From positions 5,427,001 through 5,491,000 of the forward strand of contig NZ_CP107902.1 in the NCBI RefSeq assembly GCF_036013935.1: 64,000 nucleotides of DNA. Reading direction: 5' to 3'. The stretch's first letter is position 1, and every line of letters starts with the position of its first letter. The translations under genes were made by a program, and so were the position numbers. Positions 34,105 through 46,383 of this stretch are shown piece after piece. This DNA comes from Streptomyces sp. NBC_00461. GTDB lineage: Bacteria > Actinomycetota > Actinomycetes > Streptomycetales > Streptomycetaceae. Under the pieces are notes generated by a model that made no database searches, was not told the origin of the DNA, and saw only the letters and a list, made by a program, of their open reading frames with translations.

Positions 34105-34143
34105 TCGGTTACCCGATCTTCCGTACTTCCGCCTCGATGGTCG

Positions 34144-34203
34144 CAGGCCGGGTTCGACTCCCGGTCGGGGCGCTTTCCCCTGCCGCACTGCGGTGTGGGG
34201 CTT
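34144..34203 (+). other. tRNA T-arm-like sequence and short hairpin, block A
   Basis: CCGGG-TTCGACT-CCCGG is a standard T-arm (5-bp stem, 7-nt loop), followed by TCGGGGCGC like a tRNA 3' end. No D-arm, anticodon arm or matching 5' acceptor strand is present. A second hairpin (CCGC-ACT-GCGG with CCCC/GGGG flanks) follows. The same order occurs at 34990-35046. Confidence 0.5.
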
Positions 34204-34245
34204 CCGGAGTAGCTGTCGTCTCACCACGCGCCTACGGCTGCCCGG
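34204..34245 (+). promoter_or_regulatory. Conserved-loop hairpin A upstream of the 34274 gene
   Basis: The stem CCGGAGTAGCTGT/ACGGCTGCCCGG includes G-U pairs and one bulge, around the loop CGTCTCACCACGCGCCT. It is followed by TATCCCTCC and the SD GAGGAG, which the CCTCC can pair with. It shares loop and layout with hairpins at 35052 and 41364. Confidence 0.65.
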
Positions 34246-34273
34246 CTCGTATCCCTCCGACTGAGGAGCAGTA

Positions 34274-34504
34274 GTGAACCAGAACGACCTCAACGACATC
34301 GGTCGCCGCATCGGGTCGGCCGCGCTGGAGTTCGCCCCGAGCCACCGCCCGACCCCTGCTCAGATGGCCGACGCCGCCTCGGTCCTGCGCGACATGATCC
34401 AGGCGACCGAGATCCACGGCGTGACGTTCGCGGACTTCGACGCCGTTGCCCACTTCGCTCGGCTGGCCATTCAGCTCGTTCAGGCCCGCGACGAGAGCCG
34501 GTGA
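34274..34504 (+). CDS. Hypothetical AICE protein (76 aa)
   Basis: Not recognised. Helical and soluble (MNQNDLNDIGRRIGSAALEF; PTPAQMADAASVLRDMIQATEIHGVTFADFDAVAHFARLAIQLVQ). GTG start with GAGGAG 6 nt upstream. Its stop overlaps the next gene's GTG by 4 bp. Good codon bias. Confidence 0.72.
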   Translation: MNQNDLNDIGRRIGSAALEFAPSHRPTPAQMADAASVLRDMIQATEIHGVTFADFDAVAHFARLAIQLVQARDESR

Positions 34505-34959
34505 CCGCCGTGGACGCTGCCACCTTCGCCGCTGTGTTCATCGCCCTGTACGTCGCCCACAGCGTGGGCGACCACTGGGTGCAGACCTCTCACCAGTCCG
34601 CACACAAGGGCCGCCCTGGCTGGGTCGGCCGCCTCGCCGACGCCCGGCACGTCGCCACCCTCACCGCCACCAAGGCCGTCGTCCTGCTGCCGGTCGTCTG
34701 GCTGCTGGACCTGCGCCTGTCCGTGCTCGGCATCGTCGCCGGGCTCGGCATCGACGCGGTCACACACTGGTGGGCTGACCGGCGCACCACGCTCGCGTGG
34801 CTGGCCAAGGTGACCGGCAAGGGCGAGTTCTACCGGCTCGGCACCCCGCGCACCGGCCACGACGACAACCCGCACATCGGCACCGGCGCGTACGCGCTTG
34901 ACCAGTCCTTCCACCATCTTTGGCTTCTGGTCGCCGCGCTCATCATCGCCACCGTCTGA
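34501..34959 (+). CDS. DUF3307-like membrane protein
   Basis: 152 residues. Three or four hydrophobic segments, with FIALYVAHSVGDHWVQTSHQSAHKG near the start (the HSxGDHWxQT motif of DUF3307-type proteins) and AGLGIDAVTHWWADRR in the middle. A C-terminal TM is LWLLVAALIIATV. Conserved His/Asp residues in the membrane suggest metal or proton chemistry, but no function is known. It is coupled to the upstream gene. Confidence 0.75.
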   Translation: MTAVDAATFAAVFIALYVAHSVGDHWVQTSHQSAHKGRPGWVGRLADARHVATLTATKAVVLLPVVWLLDLRLSVLGIVAGLGIDAVTHWWADRRTTLAWLAKVTGKGEFYRLGTPRTGHDDNPHIGTGAYALDQSFHHLWLLVAALIIATV

Positions 34960-34989
34960 CCCGCATCACCGCCCCGGCATCCCGCCGTG

Positions 34990-35046
34990 AGGGCGCCGGA
35001 TCGAATCCGGCCCGGGGCACTTTCCCTCGCCGCGCTGCGGCTCGGG
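34990..35046 (+). other. tRNA T-arm-like sequence and short hairpin, block B
   Basis: GCCGG-ATCGAAT-CCGGC forms a T-arm, followed by CCGGGGCAC and a CCGC-GCT-GCGG hairpin flanked by CCC/GGG. It is a diverged copy of 34144-34203. Confidence 0.5.
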
Positions 35047-35051
35047 ATCTT

Positions 35052-35095
35052 CCGGAGCAACCGCCGTCTCACCAACACGCCTGCGGCTGCTCCGG
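35052..35095 (+). promoter_or_regulatory. Conserved-loop hairpin B upstream of the 35126 gene
   Basis: CCGGAGCAACCGC/GCGGCTGCTCCGG (12 bp with one A-C mismatch) around the loop CGTCTCACCAACACGCCT. It is followed by AGTCCCTCC and the SD AGGAG. Confidence 0.68.
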
Positions 35096-35125
35096 CTCTC
35101 AGTCCCTCCCACTTCAGGAGCTTTC

Positions 35126-35413
35126 ATGCGTACGTACATTGGCCGCCAACAGGCCATCTCTGCCCAGGACTTCGCGGAACTCGCGCTCGGCACCCCGGTT
35201 GAGCTGTGGCTCGGGGTCGCGGGCGAGACGGACGAAGAGCGCGCGGCTCGCGAGGACGCGGCGCGCGACATCCTCGCCGACAACCCCGAGCTTCCCGACG
35301 ACCTGGTCCGCATCGCCGCGCAGGTCATTGAGGAGAACCCGGACCTGTTCGACGTCGTCCCCCTGGTCCGTCCCGCCCGGCGTCGCACGGCGCGCAAGGG
35401 GGTTGCGGCATGA
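35126..35413 (+). CDS. Hypothetical AICE protein (95 aa)
   Basis: Not recognised. An acidic, helical protein (ISAQDFAELALGTPVELWLGVAGETDEERAAREDAARDILADNPELPDDLVRIAAQVIEENPDLFDVVPLV) with a basic C-terminus. AGGAG is upstream of the ATG. It overlaps the DUF2637 gene by 4 bp, so it is probably made with it. Confidence 0.72.
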   Translation: MRTYIGRQQAISAQDFAELALGTPVELWLGVAGETDEERAAREDAARDILADNPELPDDLVRIAAQVIEENPDLFDVVPLVRPARRRTARKGVAA

Positions 35414-36402
35414 CCACCGTCCCCGCCCCCGAGGCGCCCGCGCCCGGTGTGCCGCCGCTGACCCGCCCGGAGCTGGGACTTGCCGGAGTCGGCGCGTTCG
35501 CTGCTGCCGCGGTCGGCGCGCTGGGTCTGATTTCCTCCTTCGACGCGGTGTCCGCCGCCGCGGTGAGCTGGGGCTTCCACTCGCCGTGGATGCTGCCGGT
35601 CGGTATCGACGTGGCCATCCCGGTGTTCACCGTCGCCAACCTGCTGCTGATCCGCATGGATATGGCGCTCGCGTGGGTGCGGTTCGTGCCATGGCTGCTG
35701 ACGCTGATCACGTGCGGGCTGAATATCGCGGCCGGACACTCCCTGTCCGCCAAGGTCGCACACGGCACCATGCCGCTGCTGTGGGTCGTGTTCTCCGAGA
35801 TCGGCGCGCACGTCTACGCGGTCCGCATCGGCGCGGCGACCGGTCGCCGGATGGAGAAGATCCGGTTCTCCCGCTGGCTGCTTGCCTTTCCCTCCACCTT
35901 CGCGCTGTGGCGTCGCATGACGCTGTGGGAGGTCACCTCCTACAGCGAGGCACTGGCGCGGGAGAAGGAACGGCAGTTGGCCCGCGCGGACCTGCGCGAG
36001 CAGTACGGCCGCAAGTGGCGGTCCAAGACCCCGCGCCGCGAGCGCGTGATGCTGCGCATGGGCGACCTCGCCCCCGCCACCGAAGAGACCACCCCCGCCC
36101 CGGCAAAGCCGCCAGCGCCCGCGGCCGACCCCAAGCCGCGCCCGCGCCGGCAGCCCGCCACCAAGGCCAAGGCGAAGGCACAGCGCACCTTCGAGGAACT
36201 GCTGACCGAGGCGCGCACGGTCACCGCGGAATGGACGGAGACGGTGCTGACCGCGGACCGCATCCGCAACGCAGTGCACTGCTCGGCAACCAACGCCCGT
36301 GCGCTGCGCGAATCGTTGAAGGCAGAGCGCGCCGACAGCCGCGCCGTGCACTCCGTAGAGGCCCCCGACGCCGCATTGACCGGCGAAGGGGTGGCCGCCT
36401 GA
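35410..36402 (+). CDS. DUF2637 (SpdB-like) membrane protein
   Basis: 330 residues. Four TM segments occupy residues ~20-145 (ELGLAGVGAFAAAAVGALGLIS; WMLPVGIDVAIPVFTVANLLLI; WVRFVPWLLTLITCGLNIAAG; MPLLWVVFSEIGAHVYAVRIG). A long cytoplasmic part has an Ala/Pro/Lys-rich linker and a C-terminal helix-turn-helix-like region (LTADRIRNAVHCSATNARALRESL). SpdB proteins help plasmid spread between hyphal compartments, and some bind DNA or TraB. It overlaps both neighbours by 1-4 bp. Confidence 0.83.
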   Translation: MTTVPAPEAPAPGVPPLTRPELGLAGVGAFAAAAVGALGLISSFDAVSAAAVSWGFHSPWMLPVGIDVAIPVFTVANLLLIRMDMALAWVRFVPWLLTLITCGLNIAAGHSLSAKVAHGTMPLLWVVFSEIGAHVYAVRIGAATGRRMEKIRFSRWLLAFPSTFALWRRMTLWEVTSYSEALAREKERQLARADLREQYGRKWRSKTPRRERVMLRMGDLAPATEETTPAPAKPPAPAADPKPRPRRQPATKAKAKAQRTFEELLTEARTVTAEWTETVLTADRIRNAVHCSATNARALRESLKAERADSRAVHSVEAPDAALTGEGVAA

Positions 36403-36821
36403 TGGCCGCGTACGGCAAGTGCTTCGACCCGTCCGGCGTCCAGTTCGGAGTGCCCACGTTCCCTTGGCGGTTCGCCCCGGACGGTTATGCCACCCGTCGG
36501 CAATTGCGGGCGCGCGGGTTACGGCCCGGCGGTCAGCCGGTCGCCGCTCAGGTGATGCGCCGCCACCGGGGCCGCAAGGCGGGAGTGCAGGTCGCCTACC
36601 TCTACCTCATCGACCTGGCCAAGCCCGTGCGGCCGATGACTTCCCGCAGATGCGGTGCGCTCGCGCTGGCGATGCTCGCTCGCCGCACCTGCCCCGAGTG
36701 TCAGGTCATCTACGACTACTGCCTGCCGACCTCGCTCGGCATGTGCGTGCTGTGCGCCTACCCCGACACCACCACCCCCGCCACCACGAACGCCAACCAC
36801 GCGTCCATGAGGAGGGATTGA
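36402..36821 (+). CDS. RRQRL-motif zinc-binding protein
   Basis: 139 residues. ATRRQLRARGLRPGGQPVAAQVM is close to the RRQRL motif of a zinc-binding family found on actinomycete elements. Cysteines in RRTCPECQVIYDYCLPTSLGMCVLCAYP form a zinc-ribbon-like site. The ATG at 36402 overlaps the DUF2637 stop. Probably a DNA- or RNA-contacting accessory of transfer or replication; role unproven. Confidence 0.75.
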   Translation: MAAYGKCFDPSGVQFGVPTFPWRFAPDGYATRRQLRARGLRPGGQPVAAQVMRRHRGRKAGVQVAYLYLIDLAKPVRPMTSRRCGALALAMLARRTCPECQVIYDYCLPTSLGMCVLCAYPDTTTPATTNANHASMRRD

Positions 36822-36823
36822 CC

Positions 36824-37141
36824 ATGGCCAAGCCCAACACGAACCGCCTGGACCGCGAGATCCGGATCACCACCCGCAAACTCGAAGCGGTCCGCAAGGA
36901 GGAGATGTGGCCGCTGACCGGACAGGAGAGGCGGGCGGTGTTGAGGGCGCTCGCTGGAGGCTCGTACAAGGTCGCCCGAGGCAAGAGCACCGGCCGCGCG
37001 GAACGGAAGCTGGAGACGCTGTGGCAGTCGGTGCTGACCCGGCTCACCGCGGAACTGACCGCGTTGCAGACGGAGCGGCAGCGGATCGTGGGCGAGGCAG
37101 CCGCCGCCAAGGCCGCCAAGAAGTCCTCGGGGTGGTGGTGA
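36824..37141 (+). CDS. Hypothetical AICE protein (105 aa), helical and basic
   Basis: Not recognised. Long helices (LDREIRITTRKLEAVRKEEMWPLTGQERRAVLRALAGGSYKVARGK; LETLWQSVLTRLTAELTALQTERQRIVGEAAAAKAAKK) and a KKSSGWW end. GGAGG is 8 nt before ATG. The KSSGWW/KKSSWW endings of this and the next small protein are strikingly alike. Confidence 0.68.
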   Translation: MAKPNTNRLDREIRITTRKLEAVRKEEMWPLTGQERRAVLRALAGGSYKVARGKSTGRAERKLETLWQSVLTRLTAELTALQTERQRIVGEAAAAKAAKKSSGWW

Positions 37142-37143
37142 CC

Positions 37144-37314
37144 ATGGCCGCACAGCAGACGCCTCCGGGTGAGTGCCCGCAGTGCTGGCAGCACGCCCAC
37201 GACCGGCGCATCCATCGCAAGCTCCGTCCCCGCGAGGACTGCCAGCCGTGCCTGGACCACATGCACAACGGCTGCCCCTACCTCGTGCCCAAGAAGAAGT
37301 CGAGCTGGTGGTGA
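37144..37314 (+). CDS. Small zinc-ribbon protein (56 aa), pRL2-8-like
   Basis: CPQCWQHAHDRRIHRKLRPREDCQPCLDHMHNGCP has two CxxC-type pairs and several His, fitting a compact zinc fold, and ends KKKSSWW. It resembles the small protein named pRL2-8 on Streptomyces plasmids (recognised from memory). It starts 2 bp after the previous stop, so it is co-translated. Confidence 0.65.
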   Translation: MAAQQTPPGECPQCWQHAHDRRIHRKLRPREDCQPCLDHMHNGCPYLVPKKKSSWW

Positions 37315-37384
37315 CCCGGCACGAGCGTGCCGCTGAACGCCGCCTCACCTCTGGGCTAGGACGTAACCCACTACTTGGCCCCGG

Positions 37385-37402
37385 TTACTCGTCACCGAGT
37401 AA
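37385..37402. promoter_or_regulatory. Inverted repeat TTACTCG-TCAC-CGAGTAA
   Basis: 7-bp perfect arms in the 220-bp gap before the translocase gene. A+T content is higher than nearby. Candidate operator or transfer-related site. Confidence 0.35.
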
Positions 37403-37461
37403 TGGGCTTTGTCCCTGGTGCCGAGTTGTGCCACGCGAAACGCTCACCTTGCACCCAAGCA

Positions 37462-37503
37462 CAGGGCCCGGCCTTGCCCGCCAAGACAGCGGCCGGGCCC
37501 CTG
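37462..37503 (+). promoter_or_regulatory. GC-rich hairpin before the translocase gene
   Basis: CAGGGCCCGGCC pairs with GGCCGGGCCCCTG (one bulged C) around a 17-nt loop. It is followed by CCCCTCCC and the SD GAGGAAGG, giving the same hairpin, anti-SD, SD order as the conserved-loop elements although the loop differs. Confidence 0.55.
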
Positions 37504-37534
37504 CTCATCCCCTCCCGAGGAAGGAACGTCTCAA

Positions 37535-39739
37535 GTGAACCAGCCCGACGACAACGAACTGTTCAACCGGCTCGAAGCCGAGATGTCGGCCGACTCCGGC
37601 GCCGAGGTAGTCGACCTCGGCAAGGCCCGATCCGCCCGCACCGGGTCGCCCGCCCCGACTCCCGACCCGGTGCCCGACTCCCGCCCGATCGAGTCGGCCG
37701 ACTTCGACGATGAGGAGTCGGCCGACTCGGTCGCCCGACCGGTCGACCGGCCCAACCTTCCGGCGCCGGGTATCACCACCTACAAGCGTCGGCCGATCCT
37801 GCCGAGTTGGCTCACCTCCAAGCCGGGGTTCGTGGCCACCACGCAGTGGGCGACCGCCAACGCCTTCTACGCCACCGCCTTCCACGGCATCCGCACCCCC
37901 TGGTACGCCCTCCAGCTCACCCTCAACTCGCCGCGCGGTGCGGCCCGTTTCGTGCGGGACACCAACCGGTGGGTGTGGGACGCGGAGGGTGCTCCGCTGC
38001 GCGAGTACGAGGTGCGCCGGGAGAACACCGCCGAGTACCTGAAGCTGTCGCGGCAGCGGGACGGGCGGGTGCGGCTGCGCGTGCTGGTCACCACGGTGGC
38101 GCTCGTCTTCGGCGCCGCCTTCGCGCTGACCCTGTACGTCATGGCCCCCGGTTGGCTCGCGGTCCTAGCTTCCGCCGCGGTGCTGGTGGCCGGATTCTGG
38201 GGCGCCCCGCAGGACCATCCCGTGATCGGGCCCGCGGTCCTGAAGACCGAGATCCAGAAGCTCACCGGACCGATCGTGCTGCGCGCCCTGGACAACATCG
38301 GCAACCCGAAACTGACCGCCGCCATCAAAAAGGGCGGCGACATGAACGGGATGCGCTTCACCTCCGAGATCACCCGCGATGGCCCCGGCTACCGCGCCGA
38401 CCTTGACCTTCCCTGGGGTGTGACCCCGGAGGACATCATGGAGGCCCGCAAGCCGCTGGCGTCCGGGCTGCGCCGCAAGGTCGGCTGCGTGTGGCCCTCA
38501 GCCGACCCGACCGAGCACGAGGGACGGCTGATCCTATGGGTGGGCGACAAGCCCATGAACGAGACCACCAAGCCCGCCTGGCCGCTGCTGAAGTCCGGCA
38601 GCGTGGACCTGTTCAAGCCGGTCGTGTTCGGCAACGACCAGCGCATGGGCGACGTGGCCGTGACCCTCATGTTCGCGAGCGTGGTGGTCGGCTCCATCCC
38701 GCGCATGGGCAAGACGTTCCTGATGCGGCTGTTCCTGCTCATCGCTGCATTGGACCCGCGCGCCGCGCTGTACGCGTTCGACTTCAAGGGCACCGGCGAC
38801 TTCGGCGCCCTGGAGCCGGTCTGCCACCGCTACCGGGCCGGAGACGAGGACGAAGACATCCTCTACGTCCTGGAATCGCTGCGGGAGCTGCGGGCGGAGC
38901 TGCGCCGCAGGGCGAAGGTCATCAAGTCCCTGCCGCGCTCGCGCTGCCCGGAATCCAAGGTGACCCCGGAGCTGGCGAACGACAAGTCCCTCGGTCTGCA
39001 CCCGATCGTCGCCGGATTCGATGAGTGCCAGGTCCCCTTCGAGCACGAGAAGTACGGCGCGGAAATCGAAGAGATCGCCACCGACCTGGGCAAACGCGGC
39101 CCGGCCCTGGGCATGGTGACCCTGTTCGGCACCCAGCGCCCGGACGCCAAGTCGCTGCCCACCGGCATCTCAGCCAACGCCGTGCTGCGGTTCTGCCTCA
39201 AGGTCATGGGCCAGCCCGCCAACGACATGGTGCTCGGCACGTCGATGTACAAGGCGGGGTACCGGGCCACCATGTTCTCCCGCTCCGACCGCGGCATTTG
39301 CTGGATGGCCGGTGAGGGCGACGACCCCCGCATCGTGGCGAGCGCGTTCGTCGACGCGGTCGGCGCCGAGCAGGTCGTCGCCCGGGCCCGCAAGATGCGC
39401 GAGGCGTACGGCAACATCACCGGCCACGCCATCGGCGAGACGCCCGACAGCGGTGAGGCCGCCTTCGACCTGCTCGCCGACATCCTCAAGGTCGTGCCGG
39501 CCGATGAGGACAAGGTGTGGAACGAGAAGGTCGCCGTCCGGCTCGCCACGCTGCGGCCGGAGGTCTACGGCGGCTGGAAGGCCGAGACGGTGACCACGAA
39601 CCTGCGCCCGCACGGCATCGCCGCGCAGGACGTGTGGGGCACCACCGACAAGGGCAAGGGCACCACCCGCCGCGGCATCGCCCGCGCCGACATCACCACC
39701 GCCATCACCCAACGTGACGGAAAGTGGTCCGGGGGCTGA
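37535..39739 (+). CDS. FtsK/SpoIIIE-type DNA translocase (TraB/TraSA class)
   Basis: 734 residues. An acidic, Asp/Ser-rich N-terminus (~70 aa) is followed by two TM segments (VLVTTVALVFGAAFALTLYVM and WLAVLASAAVLVAGF). The motor has Walker A GSIPRMGKT (~386-394), ALYAFDFKGTGDF, Walker B LHPIVAGFDECQ, and FGTQRPDAKSLPTGISANAVLRFCLKV. A C-terminal winged-helix-like part probably reads the element's transfer site. It pumps double-stranded element DNA to the recipient and is the only conjugation motor needed in AICEs. GTG at 37535 has GAGGAAGG upstream. Confidence 0.92.
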   Translation: MNQPDDNELFNRLEAEMSADSGAEVVDLGKARSARTGSPAPTPDPVPDSRPIESADFDDEESADSVARPVDRPNLPAPGITTYKRRPILPSWLTSKPGFVATTQWATANAFYATAFHGIRTPWYALQLTLNSPRGAARFVRDTNRWVWDAEGAPLREYEVRRENTAEYLKLSRQRDGRVRLRVLVTTVALVFGAAFALTLYVMAPGWLAVLASAAVLVAGFWGAPQDHPVIGPAVLKTEIQKLTGPIVLRALDNIGNPKLTAAIKKGGDMNGMRFTSEITRDGPGYRADLDLPWGVTPEDIMEARKPLASGLRRKVGCVWPSADPTEHEGRLILWVGDKPMNETTKPAWPLLKSGSVDLFKPVVFGNDQRMGDVAVTLMFASVVVGSIPRMGKTFLMRLFLLIAALDPRAALYAFDFKGTGDFGALEPVCHRYRAGDEDEDILYVLESLRELRAELRRRAKVIKSLPRSRCPESKVTPELANDKSLGLHPIVAGFDECQVPFEHEKYGAEIEEIATDLGKRGPALGMVTLFGTQRPDAKSLPTGISANAVLRFCLKVMGQPANDMVLGTSMYKAGYRATMFSRSDRGICWMAGEGDDPRIVASAFVDAVGAEQVVARARKMREAYGNITGHAIGETPDSGEAAFDLLADILKVVPADEDKVWNEKVAVRLATLRPEVYGGWKAETVTTNLRPHGIAAQDVWGTTDKGKGTTRRGIARADITTAITQRDGKWSGG

Positions 39740-39749
39740 CCGCGCACGG

Positions 39750-39836
39750 GTGCTAGGTCTAGCAGCCTCCGCTGCTAGACCTAGCACCCCCGCTAGCACC
39801 CCAAACCGGCTCTGATCAGCAACCTCGCACCTAGCA
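39750..39836. promoter_or_regulatory. TGCTAG/CTAGCA cluster with a 38-bp perfect palindrome
   Basis: GTGCTAGGTCTAGCAG (39750-39765) and CTGCTAGACCTAGCAC (39772-39787) are perfect inverted arms around CCTCCG. Two more CTAGCA hexamers follow at 39793 and 39831, making six in 87 bp. The same hexamers occur at the GntR promoter, so this is a candidate operator for the spread operon. It lies directly after the translocase gene, so it could also terminate or be part of the transfer site. Confidence 0.6.
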
Positions 39837-39880
39837 TCCGACCTGCGAGAACGCCGGAAACCCCGCCTGGGAGGCATCCG

Positions 39881-40162
39881 ATGACCCTCGTTCTCCTTGC
39901 TAGCGCCTGCCTACTCGCCGTCACTCTCGGTTACGCGAGTCTGTGTCGGACGAGTCCGTACGGCGACTGCCGCAAGTGCCGCGGCTTCGGCTTCGCGATG
40001 AAGACCGACCGCAAGGGCCGCCTCAAGCGCGGCAAGGACTGCCGCCGCTGCAAGGGCCACGGCAAGCGCATACGCGTCGGCCGTCACCTCTACAACCTCT
40101 GGCTGCACGTCTACCGCGACGGCAGCGACACCCCCGCCAAGACACCTCCTGCGAAGGGATAA
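39881..40162 (+). CDS. Membrane-anchored CxxC zinc-ribbon protein (93 aa)
   Basis: An N-terminal TM (LVLLASACLLAVTLGYASL) is followed by CRKCRGFGFAMKTDRKGRLKRGKDCRRCKGHGKRI, a DnaJ-like pair of CxxCxGxG motifs, and a basic C-terminus. GGAGG precedes the ATG. It is the first gene after the operator cluster, so probably GntR-controlled. A nucleic-acid or protein-binding spread factor is plausible. Confidence 0.72.
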   Translation: MTLVLLASACLLAVTLGYASLCRTSPYGDCRKCRGFGFAMKTDRKGRLKRGKDCRRCKGHGKRIRVGRHLYNLWLHVYRDGSDTPAKTPPAKG

Positions 40163-40166
40163 CCCG

Positions 40167-40355
40167 ATGGCCGTCACCGTCTCCCTGGTCGCCCTGTTCG
40201 GCCTGGTCCTGTTCTTCCTGCTGCGCTCCCACAGCCTCGGCTACGGCTCCGCGTTCGTCGCCGTGATGTTCGGCTTCTACCTCGCCTCCACCGGCGCCTC
40301 CGGCCCCGTGAACGAGCTGACCGCCGCCGTCGTCGACGCCCTCGGCAAGATCTAG
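40167..40355 (+). CDS. Small two-TM spread-type protein (62 aa)
   Basis: MAVTVSLVALFGLVLFFLLRS and a second hydrophobic helix (GSAFVAVMFGFYLASTGA) form a small integral membrane protein. GAAGGG is upstream of ATG. It sits 4 bp after the previous gene. Small hydrophobic Spd proteins typically follow the translocase in Streptomyces plasmids. Confidence 0.72.
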   Translation: MAVTVSLVALFGLVLFFLLRSHSLGYGSAFVAVMFGFYLASTGASGPVNELTAAVVDALGKI

Positions 40356-40365
40356 GAGACCAGCC

Positions 40366-40968
40366 ATGAACGAACCCATCGTGGCCCGCCACTGGCTGGC
40401 CATCGCGGCGCCCAAGGCCGCACCCGCCATCGCCACCACGACCGTGCTCGCGCTGGCCCGGATCTGGAACGCCAACGGCGCCGAACACTCCGTCGGCAAC
40501 GCCGCGTTGATGACCGTGCTGTCCGCCGGTGCCGCCGCCGCGGGGGTCTGTGCGGGCAGCCACACCGCAGACAGCACCCTCGTCGGGACCGCGTTCGCCG
40601 CCTCCGGCGCGCTCGCCTTCGCGGGCGTGGCCGGATACGCCGACGGGCTCCCGCTGCCGCTGCTGCTGTGGTCGCTGGCCACCGCGGGCGCCTACGGGCT
40701 CGCCGCCCGCTACTGGCGCACCGACCGCCGCGAGACGGTGGCGTACGAGCGGCAGACGAGCGAGCGGCGCGAGGAACAAGCGCACATCGAACGCGTCGAA
40801 ACCCTCCGCGCCACCACACAGATCGAAGTGGCCCGCACCGGCGCCGCCTACGCCGAACAGCTCGCACAGGCACTCGTTACCCGCGCCATGCTGCCCGGCT
40901 TCGACCCCACCGCCCTGGAACGCGCAGGCCTGCCCGAACTCCCCACCGATGAGAGGAAGTCCGCATGA
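40366..40968 (+). CDS. Multi-TM hypothetical spread-type protein (200 aa)
   Basis: About four hydrophobic segments in residues 20-125 (AALMTVLSAGAAAAGVCAG; LVGTAFAASGALAFAGVAGY; LPLPLLLWSLATAGAYGLAARYW), then a charged helical tail (ETVAYERQTSERREEQAHIERVETLRATTQIEVARTG). It resembles Spd membrane proteins by topology only. The stop overlaps the next ATG by 4 bp. Confidence 0.72.
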   Translation: MNEPIVARHWLAIAAPKAAPAIATTTVLALARIWNANGAEHSVGNAALMTVLSAGAAAAGVCAGSHTADSTLVGTAFAASGALAFAGVAGYADGLPLPLLLWSLATAGAYGLAARYWRTDRRETVAYERQTSERREEQAHIERVETLRATTQIEVARTGAAYAEQLAQALVTRAMLPGFDPTALERAGLPELPTDERKSA

Positions 40969-41357
40969 CTCGCAAGACCGACCCGATTGAACACCCGCGC
41001 AAGGCCGCTGAGGCGGTGCGTGCCTTCAACCACGCCACTCTGCCCGCCCGCGACGCGCGCCCCGGCATCGCCTACCCGGGCACCACGTACCGCGCCATCG
41101 GCGCCTTCACCTCGCTCGCCCACCGGCTGCCGCAGTCCTTCGACCACATCGGCATGGACCTGGCCGACCTCCACAAGGCCGGACACCTCACCGCCGATCA
41201 CGGCACGCCCACCGAACAGGCTGCCGTGACCTGTGCGGCCCTGCGTGAGGCGGAGCGGCACGCGACCGCGATGGCCAAGGCCCTGGAACGCGCCCAAAGC
41301 GCCTCCGGCACCCTCGGCTACTCCGGTCCGATCGACGACTCCGACGACGACCAGTAG
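40965..41357 (+). CDS. Hypothetical AICE protein (130 aa)
   Basis: Not recognised. A soluble helical protein (KAAEAVRAFNHATLPARDARPGIAYPGTTYRAIGAFTSLAHRLPQSFDHI, then QAAVTCAALREAERHATAMAKALERAQSA) with an acidic Asp/Ser end. Members of this length and position are frequent in AICE spread operons. It is coupled to the upstream membrane gene. Confidence 0.7.
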   Translation: MTRKTDPIEHPRKAAEAVRAFNHATLPARDARPGIAYPGTTYRAIGAFTSLAHRLPQSFDHIGMDLADLHKAGHLTADHGTPTEQAAVTCAALREAERHATAMAKALERAQSASGTLGYSGPIDDSDDDQ

Positions 41358-41363
41358 CTACGC

Positions 41364-41406
41364 CCGAGGCGGGCGCCGTCTCACCACAAGCCTGCGCCCG
41401 CCCCGG
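41364..41406 (+). promoter_or_regulatory. Conserved-loop hairpin C upstream of the replication operon
   Basis: CCGAGGCGGGCGC/GCGCCCGCCCCGG (12 bp with one A-C mismatch at the same stem position as copy B) around the loop CGTCTCACCACAAGCCT. It is followed by AGTCCCTCC and the SD AGGAG. Confidence 0.68.
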
Positions 41407-41443
41407 TTCTCCAGTCCCTCCAAGAGAGCAGGAGATATCCAGC

Positions 41444-41521
41444 ATGACTCAACGTCGTGCATTCGGCGAGGGCCGTCCGGCCCATGCCACCCCATCGAGC
41501 ACGTCGGGGGTGACGACATGA
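41444..41521 (+). CDS. 25-residue ORF coupled to the prim-pol gene
   Basis: ATG with AGGAG about 9 nt upstream. The peptide starts MTQRRAFGEGRPAHATPS and ends TTSTSGVTT-like before TGA. The stop overlaps the prim-pol ATG (ATGA). As the first start after hairpin C, it could be a leader peptide or a coupling device for replication gene expression. Confidence 0.45.
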   Translation: MTQRRAFGEGRPAHATPSSTSGVTT

Positions 41522-42408
41522 ACCGTCACCTCCTGTACGCCGCCCTCGACGCTGCGGAGCGAGGGTGGGCAGTCCTTCCTCTGCGCCCCGCTGACAAGCG
41601 TCCGGCCCTGCACGGTGAAAACGTCTGCCCTGGTATCGGGGACTGCGCGGGCGGTCACCGCAAGTGGGAAGAGCGCGCCACCATCGACCCGGACCGCATC
41701 CGCCGCGCGTGGGGCGACCTGCCGTTCAACGTCGGCATCGCGACCGGCCCGTCCGGGCTGGTCGTCGTCGACCTCGACATGCCCAAGCGGAAGAGCAGTG
41801 CGGACACGCCTAACGGCGTGACGACCTTCACGGCGCTCTGCGAGCGCGCCGGACAGGCTGTGCCCACCACCCGCACGGTGCGGACCGCGAGCGGTGGGGT
41901 CCACCTGTACCTGACCGCCCCGCCCGGCGTTCGGCTCGGCAACACGGCCGGACGTCTCGGCAAGTGCATCGACACCCGCGCGTGGGGCGGCTACGTCGTT
42001 GCTCCCGGCAGCCTCACCCCTACGGGCGCCTACGCGGTTGTCAACGACACGCCGCCCGCACCTCTGCCGGAATGGCTGTACGCCCGCCTGACGGTCCGTC
42101 AGCCATCGCGGGCACTAACGGCTGCACCGTCATCAGCTAGGGCGTCCAGCTACGCCGCCGCGGGCTTGAACGCGGAAACCGCGTCCGTACGGCAGGCCCC
42201 GGAGGGCGAGCGCAACGCCACGTTGCTGCGGGCGGCGCGAGCCCTGGGGCGGTTCATCGCGTGGGGCGACCTTCCCAGGGAGCAGGTTGAGGAGGCTCTT
42301 CAGTGGGCGGGGGAAGAGGCCGGTCTTGCTCCGCGGTCGTGCGAGGCGACCATTCGCAGTGGTCTGAACTGGTCGATTACCCGCAATAGTCAGCGGAGGG
42401 CGGCATGA
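41518..42408 (+). CDS. Bifunctional DNA primase/polymerase (prim-pol, RepPP type)
   Basis: 296 residues. AALDAAERGWAVLPLRPADKRPAL opens the prim-pol domain. The metal site is in SGLVVVDLDMPK (Asp-Leu-Asp), and ASGGVHLYLTAP and VVAPGSLTPTGAY are the later motifs. A C-terminal helical part (RNATLLRAARALGRFIAWGDLPREQVEEALQWAGEEAGL) matches the primase C-terminal bundle. It starts DNA synthesis for autonomous replication of the excised element together with the DUF3631 protein. Its ATG overlaps the small ORF upstream. Confidence 0.88.
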   Translation: MNRHLLYAALDAAERGWAVLPLRPADKRPALHGENVCPGIGDCAGGHRKWEERATIDPDRIRRAWGDLPFNVGIATGPSGLVVVDLDMPKRKSSADTPNGVTTFTALCERAGQAVPTTRTVRTASGGVHLYLTAPPGVRLGNTAGRLGKCIDTRAWGGYVVAPGSLTPTGAYAVVNDTPPAPLPEWLYARLTVRQPSRALTAAPSSARASSYAAAGLNAETASVRQAPEGERNATLLRAARALGRFIAWGDLPREQVEEALQWAGEEAGLAPRSCEATIRSGLNWSITRNSQRRAA

Positions 42409-43921: not shown

Positions 43922-44092
43922 AAAAGGTAGCGGCAAGCCCGGATTTTGCCGCTACCCGCACCGCTCTATCCGCTACCGGTCCCGCACCACCCCGAGGGCC
44001 GGTAGCGGATTTATCCGCTACCGCCACCCCTATCCGCTACCTCGATCATGCCCCTGACCAGGGCGGTAGCGGAGGTAGCGGAAGTAGCGGAC
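43875..44092. repeat. Twelve-copy GTAGCGG iteron array, candidate replication origin
   Basis: CCGCTAC/GTAGCGG occurs at 43877, 43886, 43895, 43927, 43949, 43970, 44002, 44015, 44034, 44066, 44075 and 44084. The outer triplets are spaced 9 bp apart and point toward each other, making perfect 30-bp inverted ends (43875-43904 and 44063-44092). Inside are three further perfect inverted repeats (11, 12 and 10 bp) and A+T-rich patches (AAAAAAGG, GGATTTATCC). Its place between the prim-pol/DUF3631 operon and xis-int suits a replication origin or Rep operator. Confidence 0.75.
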
Positions 44093-44144
44093 CTGACAGG
44101 AAGGGGGCCACCGTCCCCGGACCCTGCCGAGGAGGCAACGCCGC

Positions 44145-44354
44145 ATGAGCACCGCTGCCATACCGGCCGAACAGCTTCTCTACCGACCCGAAGAGGCTGC
44201 CAAGGCTCTCAGGATCGGCCGCTCGATGGTCTACGAGGAGATCCGCCTCGGACGACTTCAGACCGTCCGCATCGGCCGTCGTCGACTCGTGCCGCCGGAG
44301 TACATCGAGCAGTACGTCGAACTCCTCAAGCGCGAGGCAGAAGCCACCGCCTGA
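44145..44354 (+). CDS. xis: Excisionase-type HTH protein
   Basis: 69 residues, MerR/AlpA-like helix-turn-helix (YRPEEAAKALRIGRSMVYEEIRLGRLQTVRIGRRRLVPPEYIEQYVELL). It is the usual recombination directionality factor beside AICE integrases and bends attachment-site DNA to favour excision. GAGGAGG is upstream of ATG. The iteron array lies immediately upstream, so its expression may respond to replication proteins. Confidence 0.88.
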   Translation: MSTAAIPAEQLLYRPEEAAKALRIGRSMVYEEIRLGRLQTVRIGRRRLVPPEYIEQYVELLKREAEATA

Positions 44355-44374
44355 ACTCCCCAACCACCCATCGC

Positions 44375-44407
44375 AACAGGGCTGCGCCCCTCAAGGCGCG
44401 GCCCTGT
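44375..44407 (+). promoter_or_regulatory. Hairpin between xis and int
   Basis: ACAGGGC/GCCCTGT (7 bp) and GCGCC/GGCGC (5 bp) separated by a small internal loop, with the CCTCAA loop at the top. It ends a few bases before the integrase SD GGAGG. Confidence 0.5.
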
Positions 44408-44428
44408 CCTATGGAGGCGCAACACAGA

Positions 44429-45610
44429 ATGACCGAGACCCCGAAGCGCGCCCAAAGGGCTGGCCACGGTGCGGACACGATCTATTGGGACCCCGTCAAG
44501 AAGAGCTATGTGGGAGCCGTCTCCTTGGGGCACGCCCCGAACGGCAAACGCCGTCGACCGAAGGTGTACGGCAAGACGAAGACCGAAGTCCGCAACAAGA
44601 TCCGGGACTTGAAGAAAGAGATGCAGACCGGCGTCAAAGCGCCGGCCAACTACACCGTGGCCGATGCGGTGAACGACTGGTTGGAGCGCGGACTGAAGGG
44701 GCGCGACGAGAAGGGCACCATCGGCAAGAACCGCTCGATGGCGAACAAGCACCTGATCCCGCTCATCGGCAAGGCCAAGCTGAAGGAACTCAGCGCGGAC
44801 GATGTCGACGACTGGTTGGACGACAGGGCTGAATTCCTCGCGACGCGGAGCCTTCGTGACCTGCTCGCCATCCTGCGCCGCTCCATCGTGCACGCTCAGC
44901 GTCGCGACATGGCCGCGCGGAACGTCGCCCTACTCGTCACCGCACCGGAGGGGCGCCCCGGCCGACCGAGCAAGGCACTGAACCTGGAGCAGGCGAAAGC
45001 CGTGCTCATAGCCGCGCGCCCGTCACGCCTTTACGCCTACCTCGTGCTCTCGCTTCTCAGCGGCGTTCGCACAGAAGAGGCGCGTCCCCTCACCTGGGAT
45101 CACGTCTTCCTGGAGACGAAGGACGGCACTCCGCCCCACGTCGCGGTGTGGCGCTCTGTGCGCAAGCATGGCGAGACGAAGACCCGGAAGAGTCGCCGGA
45201 CAATCGGGCTGCCGAAGCAGGTGGTCGATGTCCTCGAAGAGCACATGCGATGGCAGAAGCAGGAGCGGGCGTCGGGAGGGATGGAGTGGAGTCCAGCGGG
45301 CCGCGTCTTCACGACCCGGACCGGTGAGCCGCTCGATGCGGCCAACGTCCGCCGCGACTTCAAGGCCATCGTGCAGAAGGCGGGACTGAAGCCGGAGTGG
45401 ACGCCGCGAGAGCTCCGGCACAGCTTCGTGTCCCTGCTCTCCGACCACGGCATTCCGCTGGAGCGAATCGCGCTCCTGGTCGGCCACAGCAGTCAGGCCA
45501 CCACGGAGGCGGTCTATCGCAAGCAGCTCCGTCCGGTGATCACAGAGGGCGCCGAGGCGATGGATGACATCTTCGCTGAAGATCGAAAGGAGAACCCCAC
45601 GCGAGGCTGA
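44429..45610 (+). CDS. int: Tyrosine site-specific integrase
   Basis: 393 residues. The N-terminus has an arm-type DNA-binding region (DTIYWDPVKKSYVGAVSLGHAPNGKRRRPKVYGKTKTEVRNKI), then a SAM-like core-binding domain. The catalytic residues are Arg214 (SGVRTEEARPL), Arg330 and His331 (TPRELRHSF), the His in LVGHSSQ, and nucleophile Tyr363 (EAVYRK). It recombines attP with the tRNA-Pro 3' end and, with Xis, excises the element. I chose ATG at 44429 with GGAGG 11 nt upstream; ATG at 44411 is an alternative. Confidence 0.94.
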   Translation: MTETPKRAQRAGHGADTIYWDPVKKSYVGAVSLGHAPNGKRRRPKVYGKTKTEVRNKIRDLKKEMQTGVKAPANYTVADAVNDWLERGLKGRDEKGTIGKNRSMANKHLIPLIGKAKLKELSADDVDDWLDDRAEFLATRSLRDLLAILRRSIVHAQRRDMAARNVALLVTAPEGRPGRPSKALNLEQAKAVLIAARPSRLYAYLVLSLLSGVRTEEARPLTWDHVFLETKDGTPPHVAVWRSVRKHGETKTRKSRRTIGLPKQVVDVLEEHMRWQKQERASGGMEWSPAGRVFTTRTGEPLDAANVRRDFKAIVQKAGLKPEWTPRELRHSFVSLLSDHGIPLERIALLVGHSSQATTEAVYRKQLRPVITEGAEAMDDIFAEDRKENPTRG

Positions 45611-46258: not shown

Positions 46259-46353
46259 AAGCACGACAGAGGGCCAATCGCGATCATGCGATTGGCCCTC
46301 TGATCAGCGTCGGGGTGGCGGGATTTGAACCCACGACCTCTTCGTCCCGAACG
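46244..46353. repeat. attR: element-supplied 3' end of tRNA-Pro plus hairpin
   Basis: The partner of the 29507-29616 repeat. It rebuilds the tRNA 3' end and brings a near-identical hairpin downstream of it, so both tRNA and its terminator are restored after integration. Confidence 0.88.
46267..46302 (-). terminator. Terminator hairpin of the functional tRNA-Pro (attR copy)
   Basis: CAGAGGGCCAATCGC / GCGATTGGCCCTCTG, a perfect 15-bp stem around GATCAT, lies 7 bp beyond the tRNA 3' end on the minus strand. Confidence 0.7.
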
Positions 46354-46383
46354 AAGCGCGCTGCCAAGCTGCGCTACACCCCG
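46310..46383 (-). tRNA. tRNA-Pro (anticodon CGG)
   Basis: 74 nt. Acceptor stem CGGGGTG pairs with CACCCCG with A at position 73. The anticodon stem CTTCG/CGAAG encloses TTCGGGA, giving anticodon CGG. The T-arm is GTGGG-TTCAAAT-CCCGC. No encoded CCA. The 3' half is supplied by the element's attR repeat; the chromosomal 3' end remains at 29573-29616. Confidence 0.95.

Follow-up and report, generated by a model that had tools for sequence, protein, structure and literature searches.

A covarying hairpin and tRNA-like structures in gene leaders of a Streptomyces integrative element, the latter also in phages and plasmids

Results

Two structured elements in the leaders of an integrative element

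The 64,000-nucleotide stretch of the Streptomyces sp. NBC_00461 genome analysed here (NZ_CP107902.1, positions 5,427,001 to 5,491,000, forward strand; the window) holds an integrative element, which we take to resemble the pSAM2-type elements of actinomycetes, encoding a DUF2637 protein, a Prim-Pol replication protein, a DUF3631 protein and a tyrosine integrase, with one end adjoining a tRNA-Pro(cgg) gene (Table 1). Three gene leaders in this element carry a hairpin with an invariant loop (HP3), described in an earlier note on this DNA; copies 1 and 2 stand ahead of small genes in the DUF3307/DUF2637 region, and copy 3 ahead of a short open reading frame (ORF) that overlaps the Prim-Pol gene. 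Upstream of copies 1 and 2, not of copy 3, lies a tRNA-like structure (TLS) that the note had missed and that is the more consequential feature. The TLS spans 43-50 nt and consists of an acceptor stem and a T arm, with a D-loop-like GG in its short form and no anticodon arm; in both leaders it is followed in order by a purine and a C at the tRNA positions 73 and 74 (R73-C74), a hairpin (HP2), HP3 and the Shine-Dalgarno sequence (SD).

Structure of the TLS

A very loose TLS descriptor was rejected after it gave 118 hits against 76 in shuffled sequence in one plasmid, and a strict one was used instead, with shuffles that preserve letter counts only. Besides tRNA-Pro genes, the strict descriptor matched only TLSs beside HP3 (10 distinct rows) in the window and the 37 of 77 collected loci judged relevant; letter-shuffled sequence gave 1 match in 820 kb. 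The fold was examined in an alignment of 26 hand-chosen descriptor hits, among them 13 of the 16 strict-descriptor hits of phage VanLee (140 and 10657 were left out as misregistered and 16276 as the sole plus-strand hit; a few rows are misaligned at the 5' side). Here 95.4% of the cells are paired, and covariation reaches 0.401 as against 0.138 +/- 0.017 in shuffled alignments and at most 0.119 with the partners slid.

Viral contigs were searched with a pattern that fixed G1-C4, G6, the GG, the T loop and the AC, which are no evidence there, and left five pairs free. Among 72 distinct viral TLSs, pair 51-63 was formed in 72, 50-64 in 68, 49-65 in 57 and 5-68 in 67 (shuffled means 29.7, 33.5, 28.3 and 30.5). 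The T stem is therefore real, and so is most of the acceptor stem. Since not every contig is an independent lineage, these figures are counts and not probabilities. All five free pairs occur together in 16/72. The 72 include one sequence with an N in the connector, maybe part of a masked tRNA (L118), and one misregistered across two adjacent TLSs (L133). On the latter contig (L133:120-204, minus strand) the two TLSs lie head to tail with zero spacer.

The connector measures 9-12 nt in 52/72 viral TLSs, and where it is short (53 of the 71 sequences free of N) a GG at positions 2-5, counted from nucleotide 7, is present in 52/53, compared with 22.3 and at most 32 in shuffles. TLS 1 has this GG as well. 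In tRNAs the D-loop GG at the corresponding position packs on the T loop. R73-C74, though not demanded by the descriptor, follows the acceptor stem in 29/29 descriptor hits (for L046 once the register is shifted by one base; a VanLee hit on the plus strand with GT was set aside as chance). On the 5' side, N-1 is A in 43/72 viral TLSs (26% nearby) and N-2 a pyrimidine in 59/72. A hairpin follows C74: in three sets of sequences the mean energies of the next 30 nt lie below those of all 50 letter shuffles. The acceptor stem and T arm have tRNA geometry, pair 7-66 excepted; the anticodon arm and D stem are absent, and ARAGORN reports the tRNA-Pro alone in the window.

Position of the TLS relative to genes

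In VanLee, all 17 TLSs between 62,000 and 84,560 lie on the coding strand in gaps between same-strand genes, gaps that make up 16% of the span, and 17 of the 20 same-strand gaps of at least 60 nt hold a TLS. Phage Cafasso, which did not contribute to the model, shows the same arrangement for 11/11 TLSs (E up to 0.5; two hits are weak), with at least one in 10 of 14 gaps of at least 60 nt, so that in these two stretches tRNA-shaped units on the coding strand separate co-directional genes in 28/28 cases. Of these, 18 begin 5-15 nt past a stop codon and 23 end 27-50 nt ahead of a start. By eye, the 8 distinct TLSs of plasmids all lie in gaps, and each of the 12 same-strand TLSs of one viral contig is followed by a G-rich SD and an ATG or GTG; across the annotated records examined, 37/42 TLSs lie between genes. 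In VanLee and Cafasso, many leaders have GGCACCCAAC after the post-TLS hairpin and ahead of the SD, which may be the counterpart of the HP3 signal in phages. VanLee also has a gene for a Ro-like RNA-binding protein beside a tRNA-Arg gene (L080:3752-5368), on the same genome arm as its TLS array.

Among HP3 copies, a TLS was found upstream of 16/19 distinct ones with a loop unlike that of copy 3 (15 by a looser descriptor, one by eye in L077, GCGGA/TCCGC) and of 0/10 copies of the class of copy 3 (the rep class). Two other arrangements were seen. In another genome (L203:1501) a gene that by its start, read by eye, resembles the window's 34501-34959 gene has a TLS, but no HP3, directly ahead of it, and at G000:C1:4847029-4847071 in the window's genome (L090) and in G067 (L094) a TLS is followed by hairpin-like stretches, CCCTTCGACATGGGAG and then a start, which is a different leader.

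Distribution of the TLS

Queried by BLAST, the TLS regions gave their best hits in a Gordonia plasmid, in plasmids of Streptomyces and in Gordonia phages, for the most part where no gene is annotated; the weaker hits were chance or tRNA genes. On the right arm of VanLee the strict descriptor hit 16 times, 15 of them on the coding strand, where a shuffle gave 0.15 on average. Over complete records, with E up to 0.01 as the threshold, model R1, which rests on the alignment of 26 descriptor hits, found 17 TLSs in VanLee, 10 in Cafasso, 3 in phage Trine and 2 in mycobacteriophage Journey13; five plasmids had 1-2 apiece, and one viral contig had 12, all on the same strand. Independent of the model are Cafasso, Journey13, Trine, the viral contigs and L081-L084, but not VanLee, the window or plasmids L078 and L079. 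The pattern scan of viral contigs yielded at least 80 stretches from 79 contigs, and R1 at the same threshold gave 82 hits in 69 of those 80 stretches, a few of which may be tRNA parts. The GC content of the viral loci ranges from 0.42 to 0.74, and hosts outside the actinobacteria are therefore possible. In one plasmid record (L079, NZ_CP108706.1) a 16-kb unit is present twice, so that its six TLSs are three distinct ones.

Chromosomal hits were treated differently. In a class-wide search of 148 genomes, with 42 candidates scored in each, 3/7 hits among the matches listed were true tRNAs, and among 41 relatives all 15 weaker-hit loci that were fetched (L205-L219) were tRNA genes, L201-L204 not. 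No chromosomal TLS counts are therefore claimed. One hit of 40.1 bits in the window's own genome (L093) was set aside: it has the letters of the 3' part of tRNA-Arg, with no complete tRNA by ARAGORN, and is likely an attachment-site remnant. Three 40.1-bit hits with such tRNA-Arg 3'-end letters were seen in that genome (G000:C1:6645040-6645083, 6649025-6649068 and 6678790-6678833), L093 being one of them; they are perhaps attachment-site remnants of other integrated elements.

HP3 and its relatives

Re-reading of the sequence located the three hairpins where the earlier note had placed them. Their loop, CGTCTCACCA-N(2-8)-GCCT, occurs three times in the 64 kb (shuffled mean 0.01) and exactly three times in the 10.4-Mb genome, in which the reversed pattern occurs once; the stems differ in letters yet pair on folding, and TCCCTCC follows every copy, with start codons 28, 30 and 37 nt downstream of the hairpins. 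The folding energy of copy 1 taken singly is unremarkable (z -0.4), that of copies 2 and 3 modest (z -2.1 and -3.2), and the case for HP3 therefore rests on comparison, which supports it.

A pattern scan of genome contigs, one genome per species, returned 44 stretches, 31 of them in Streptomyces; the other 13, from unrelated organisms, were dropped because stem and start context were absent by eye. The relatives form two classes by loop sequence: the rep class mostly precedes a short ORF and a Prim-Pol gene and the other mostly a gene starting ATGCGYACSTAY, the label denoting the loop only, since L039 carries the rep-class loop yet precedes the other gene type. In an alignment of 29 de-replicated sequences 94.6% of the stem cells are paired, changes on both sides occur at 6/13 pairs, and covariation is 0.321, where shuffles give 0.163 +/- 0.015 and slid partners at most 0.099. 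The split between the classes gives part of this signal, and the count of further pair types is unexceptional (16 vs 15.3, reached by 157/500 shuffles); pair 10-35 varies within the non-rep class too (U-G, U-A, C-G). The divergent copies inspected by eye retain UCNCCA in the loop, and in L195 an inner C-G pair gives way to G-C. The relatives, compared by eye, suggest a short inner stem and an apical loop of about UCNCCA-N(2-4).

The covariance-model search that the note had proposed found HP3 (model R2) in 30/297 genomes from 5/17 genera of Streptomycetaceae and, in a class-wide sample, in 2/197 genomes, both of the window's own genus and one of them its own genome; with 18-28 candidates scored per genome, these counts are lower bounds. 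The loop pattern alone was discarded as evidence: it matched in 112/295 genomes, but its reversed control also matched often, so that single matches are mostly chance, and HP3 copies were counted only with stem and TCCCTCC. Rfam 15 has no match above the gathering score at HP3, and nothing there even at E up to 5, in agreement with the note's remark that no described family fits; the tRNA is the only Rfam match above cut-off in the window. Nor does recent copying of a larger block, which the note had named as a possible refutation, explain HP3, because the rep-class copy has only HP3, TCCCTCC and the SD in common with the others and HP3 copies occupy the same gene positions in other species. 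As judged from these comparisons, HP3 is a conserved RNA family with covarying stems in Streptomycetaceae.

When a partner of the loop was sought (TGGTGAGACG with at most one mismatch), the window had 9 matches where 6.35 are expected by chance; the loops themselves account for 3, and no antisense partner was seen. In L022, L038, L058 and L065, about 100-190 nt upstream of HP3, ACGTCTCCATACGCCTAC or ACGTCTTCATACGCCTAC comes after a hairpin of the form GACC-GAAA-GGTC (or near) and resembles the HP3 loop; this is possibly a further variant of the HP3 signal.

The note's reading of HP3 as a selected RNA structure holds in so far as an invariant loop and a covarying stem recur in many elements on the strand of the gene, shortly ahead of its SD and start; the translational switch it suggested, in which TCCCTCC pairs with the SD, is so far not supported. 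In 48 copies the stretch directly before TCCCTCC can pair with the SD region (longest helix 5.44 on average vs 4.25 letter-shuffled), but the helix with a copy's own SD is no longer than that with a swapped SD (5.44 vs 5.40).

Neighbouring genes

The remaining features of the element are given in Table 1. The short ORF and the Prim-Pol gene, whose stop and start overlap, are likely translationally coupled, and from its position the tRNA-Pro(cgg) gene is the probable attachment site of the element.

Table 1. Leader structures and neighbouring genes of the integrative element (window coordinates)
Feature	Position	Strand	Description and basis
TLS 1 (short form)	34131..34173	+	acceptor GCCTCGA/TCGGGGC, connector TGGTCGCAGG with GG, T arm CCGGG-TTCGACT-CCCGG, R73-C74 = GC; descriptor, fold, R1 53.2 bits (in training set), weak Rfam mascRNA match 34131-34171
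HP2 of leader 1	34177..34200	+	hairpin directly 3' of TLS 1; fold
HP3 copy 1	34204..34245	+	invariant loop, fold; R2 55.5 bits (in training set)
TCCCTCC after HP3 copy 1	34252..34258	+	sequence
Gene after leader 1	34274..34504	+	76 aa, GTG start, SD AGGAG 34264-34268, no Pfam match
Second gene after leader 1	34501-34959	+	overlaps 34274..34504 gene; DUF3307 match weak, below cut-off
TLS 2 (long connector)	34971..35020	+	acceptor GCCCCGG/CCGGGGC, 17-nt connector, T arm GCCGG-ATCGAAT-CCGGC, R73-C74 = AC; descriptor, fold, R1 52.7 bits (in training set)
HP2 of leader 2	35023..35047	+	fold
HP3 copy 2	35052..35095	+	invariant loop, fold; R2 77 bits (in training set)
TCCCTCC after HP3 copy 2	35103..35109	+	sequence
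Gene after leader 2	35126..35413	+	95 aa, no Pfam match
DUF2637 gene	35410-36402	+	next after 35126..35413 gene
HP3 copy 3 (rep class)	41364..41406	+	directly 3' of upstream stop codon, no TLS; invariant loop, fold; R2 79 bits (in training set)
TCCCTCC after HP3 copy 3	41415..41421	+	sequence
Short ORF	41444..41521	+	25 aa; own TGA overlaps ATG of Prim-Pol gene
Prim-Pol replication gene	41518..42408	+	PF09250, E 7.6e-48
Tyrosine integrase	44048..45610	+	PF00589, E 5.9e-21
tRNA-Pro(cgg)	46309..46383	-	ARAGORN and Rfam

Discussion

Our data suggest, with somewhat better than even confidence, that the TLS is a minimal tRNA mimic that would be cut by RNase P, and perhaps also by RNase Z, and would so punctuate polycistronic messages, and that HP3 is a separate, probably protein-bound element of translation control. 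RNase P would cut at G1 of the TLS and RNase Z, on weaker grounds, after R73, and a cut at the TLS would separate two messages. We infer the cut at G1 because the TLS keeps the acceptor/T-arm stack and R73-C74, prefers a pyrimidine and A at N-2 and N-1 and mostly sits at such a point between genes; bacterial RNase P measures, from the elbow, the T-arm/acceptor stack of its substrate and pairs with the 3' end (PMC4919913), and is described as acting on mRNAs too (PMC11143913). HP3 is regarded as separate because the rep-class leaders have HP3 without a TLS and the phage TLSs examined in VanLee and Cafasso leaders stand without HP3, and the invariant HP3 loop in the leaders of two operons suggests one shared ligand, for which an RNA-binding protein would be the simplest candidate. 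We see an even chance that an as yet unrecognised RNA punctuation is common to phages, plasmids and integrative elements, chiefly those of actinobacteria: armless mini-tRNAs between genes would employ host tRNA-maturation enzymes to divide operon transcripts into single messages with hairpin-protected 5' ends, and in Streptomycetaceae elements this would be coupled to a second new RNA family, HP3, which would coordinate transfer and replication genes.

Several observations weigh against this interpretation. Pair 7-66, the acceptor pair adjoining the T arm, is unsupported in the viral TLSs (25/72 vs 19.4 shuffled), and the acceptor stem is therefore often of 6 bp; in TLS 2 and its relatives the connector lacks a D-loop-like GG close to its start, and the T loop, ATCGAAT, is atypical; and L204 has G73-T74 in place of R73-C74. 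Three of the 19 non-rep HP3 copies lack a TLS, as do 4/14 gaps of at least 60 nt in the Cafasso stretch and 3/20 in that of VanLee; positions 1-49,999 of VanLee contain none despite nine same-strand gaps of that size, and R1 at E up to 0.01 found none in phage MOOREtheMARYer. All three Trine TLSs, weaker hits within 273 nt at and past the annotated start of gene 40 (L089:11510-11782), overlap or sit inside that gene, and one of the two in Journey13 is inside annotated gene 74; the called starts of both genes may be too early. For HP3, SD sequestration has no covariation support in the 48 copies.

The TLS might instead remain uncut and, as a folded tRNA mimic, recruit an elbow-binding partner (the ribosomal L1 stalk or an RNA-binding protein) or form a stable 3' end of the upstream message, raising expression of neighbouring genes. 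The elbow-like GG and T loop are kept, elbows are recognised by other machines in the account of PMC4919913, and VanLee encodes a Ro-like protein; we nevertheless think this improbable, since the preferred N-1 and N-2 and the conserved R73-C74 at the ends of the acceptor stem indicate that the ends themselves are used. We would put an equally low value on HP3 and TCCCTCC as a self-contained switch that sequesters the SD, with the TLS unrelated to control of these genes: complementarity to the SD beside HP3 exceeds that of shuffled letters and CUCC-GGAG pairing appears in single-copy folds, but swapped helices are as long as the copies' own (5.40 vs 5.44), several relatives have TCCCTTC instead of TCCCTCC, and 16/19 non-rep copies have a TLS upstream.

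Two further explanations appear far less probable. If the repeats were DNA sites, whether operators or single-strand priming or transfer sites, their place before the replication and transfer operons of a mobile element would be natural; their constant orientation to the genes, similar spacing to the SD and G-U pairs, together with an R73-C74 and a GG connector that have no obvious DNA role, make this a very doubtful reading. That the TLSs are decayed tRNA genes or attachment-site remnants we consider the least probable of all, even though the element adjoins a tRNA-Pro gene and many weak chromosomal model hits are real tRNA genes (18/18, L095-L097 and L205-L219): both stems show compensatory changes, single phages carry 12-17 diverse copies between their genes, and ARAGORN finds no tRNA at L090, L094 or L201-L204.

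Were punctuation by the TLS to prove true, a tRNA mimic would be a repeated operon-processing device of phages and plasmids, bringing the logic of mitochondrial punctuation into bacteria in dozens of viral genomes; it would offer a direct test of a minimal natural RNase P substrate, and it would account for the regular spacing, about 100 nt, between genes in some actinophage arrays. HP3 would in turn be a new RNA family that may reveal an RNA-binding regulator of conjugative elements.

Comparison with known systems

A literature search, which reached few subscription papers and bioRxiv preprints, found no description of TLSs or HP3. No T-box, other known riboswitch or further Rfam family matched above cut-off in the leaders of the window or in five phage and plasmid loci. 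The Rfam family that recurs in weak matches to TLSs, on their own strand, is mascRNA/menRNA (RF01684), the tRNA-like product that RNase P and RNase Z release from MALAT1; the TLSs stay below its gathering score of 42.5, at 22.5-26.8 bits (24.6 in the window, at most 26.8 in VanLee). Both are reduced tRNA-like folds within a long transcript, but mascRNA/menRNA belongs to a eukaryotic nuclear long non-coding RNA, whereas TLSs are repeated between coding genes.

Repeats ahead of phage genes have been described before. The SAS/ESAS repeats of cluster K mycobacteriophages likewise occupy gaps ahead of right-half gene starts, but by their description consist of a 13-bp sequence and 17-bp imperfect inverted repeats, and in the sections consulted their authors report little support for RNA pairing (PMC3203893). 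The intergenic repeats of Gordonia phage CaiB also lie directly upstream of phage genes, while the consensus blocks published for them are by eye not TLS-like (PMC9302106).

Other parallels concern processing. RNase P substrates described in PMC11143913 include bacterial mRNAs, riboswitches and the phage C4 antisense RNA; the enzyme is the one proposed here and the RNA is likewise intergenic or a leader, although those are individual substrates and the TLSs a repeated structural family. Mitochondrial tRNA punctuation, as generally outlined, similarly sets tRNA-shaped units between the genes of a polycistronic transcript, but with true tRNAs, whereas the units described here are armless mimics, putatively cut, in bacterial mobile elements and phages. 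tRNA-like structures and mRNA cutting by RNase P are known; what appears to be new is an armless form that is repeated and fills gaps in mobile elements and phages.

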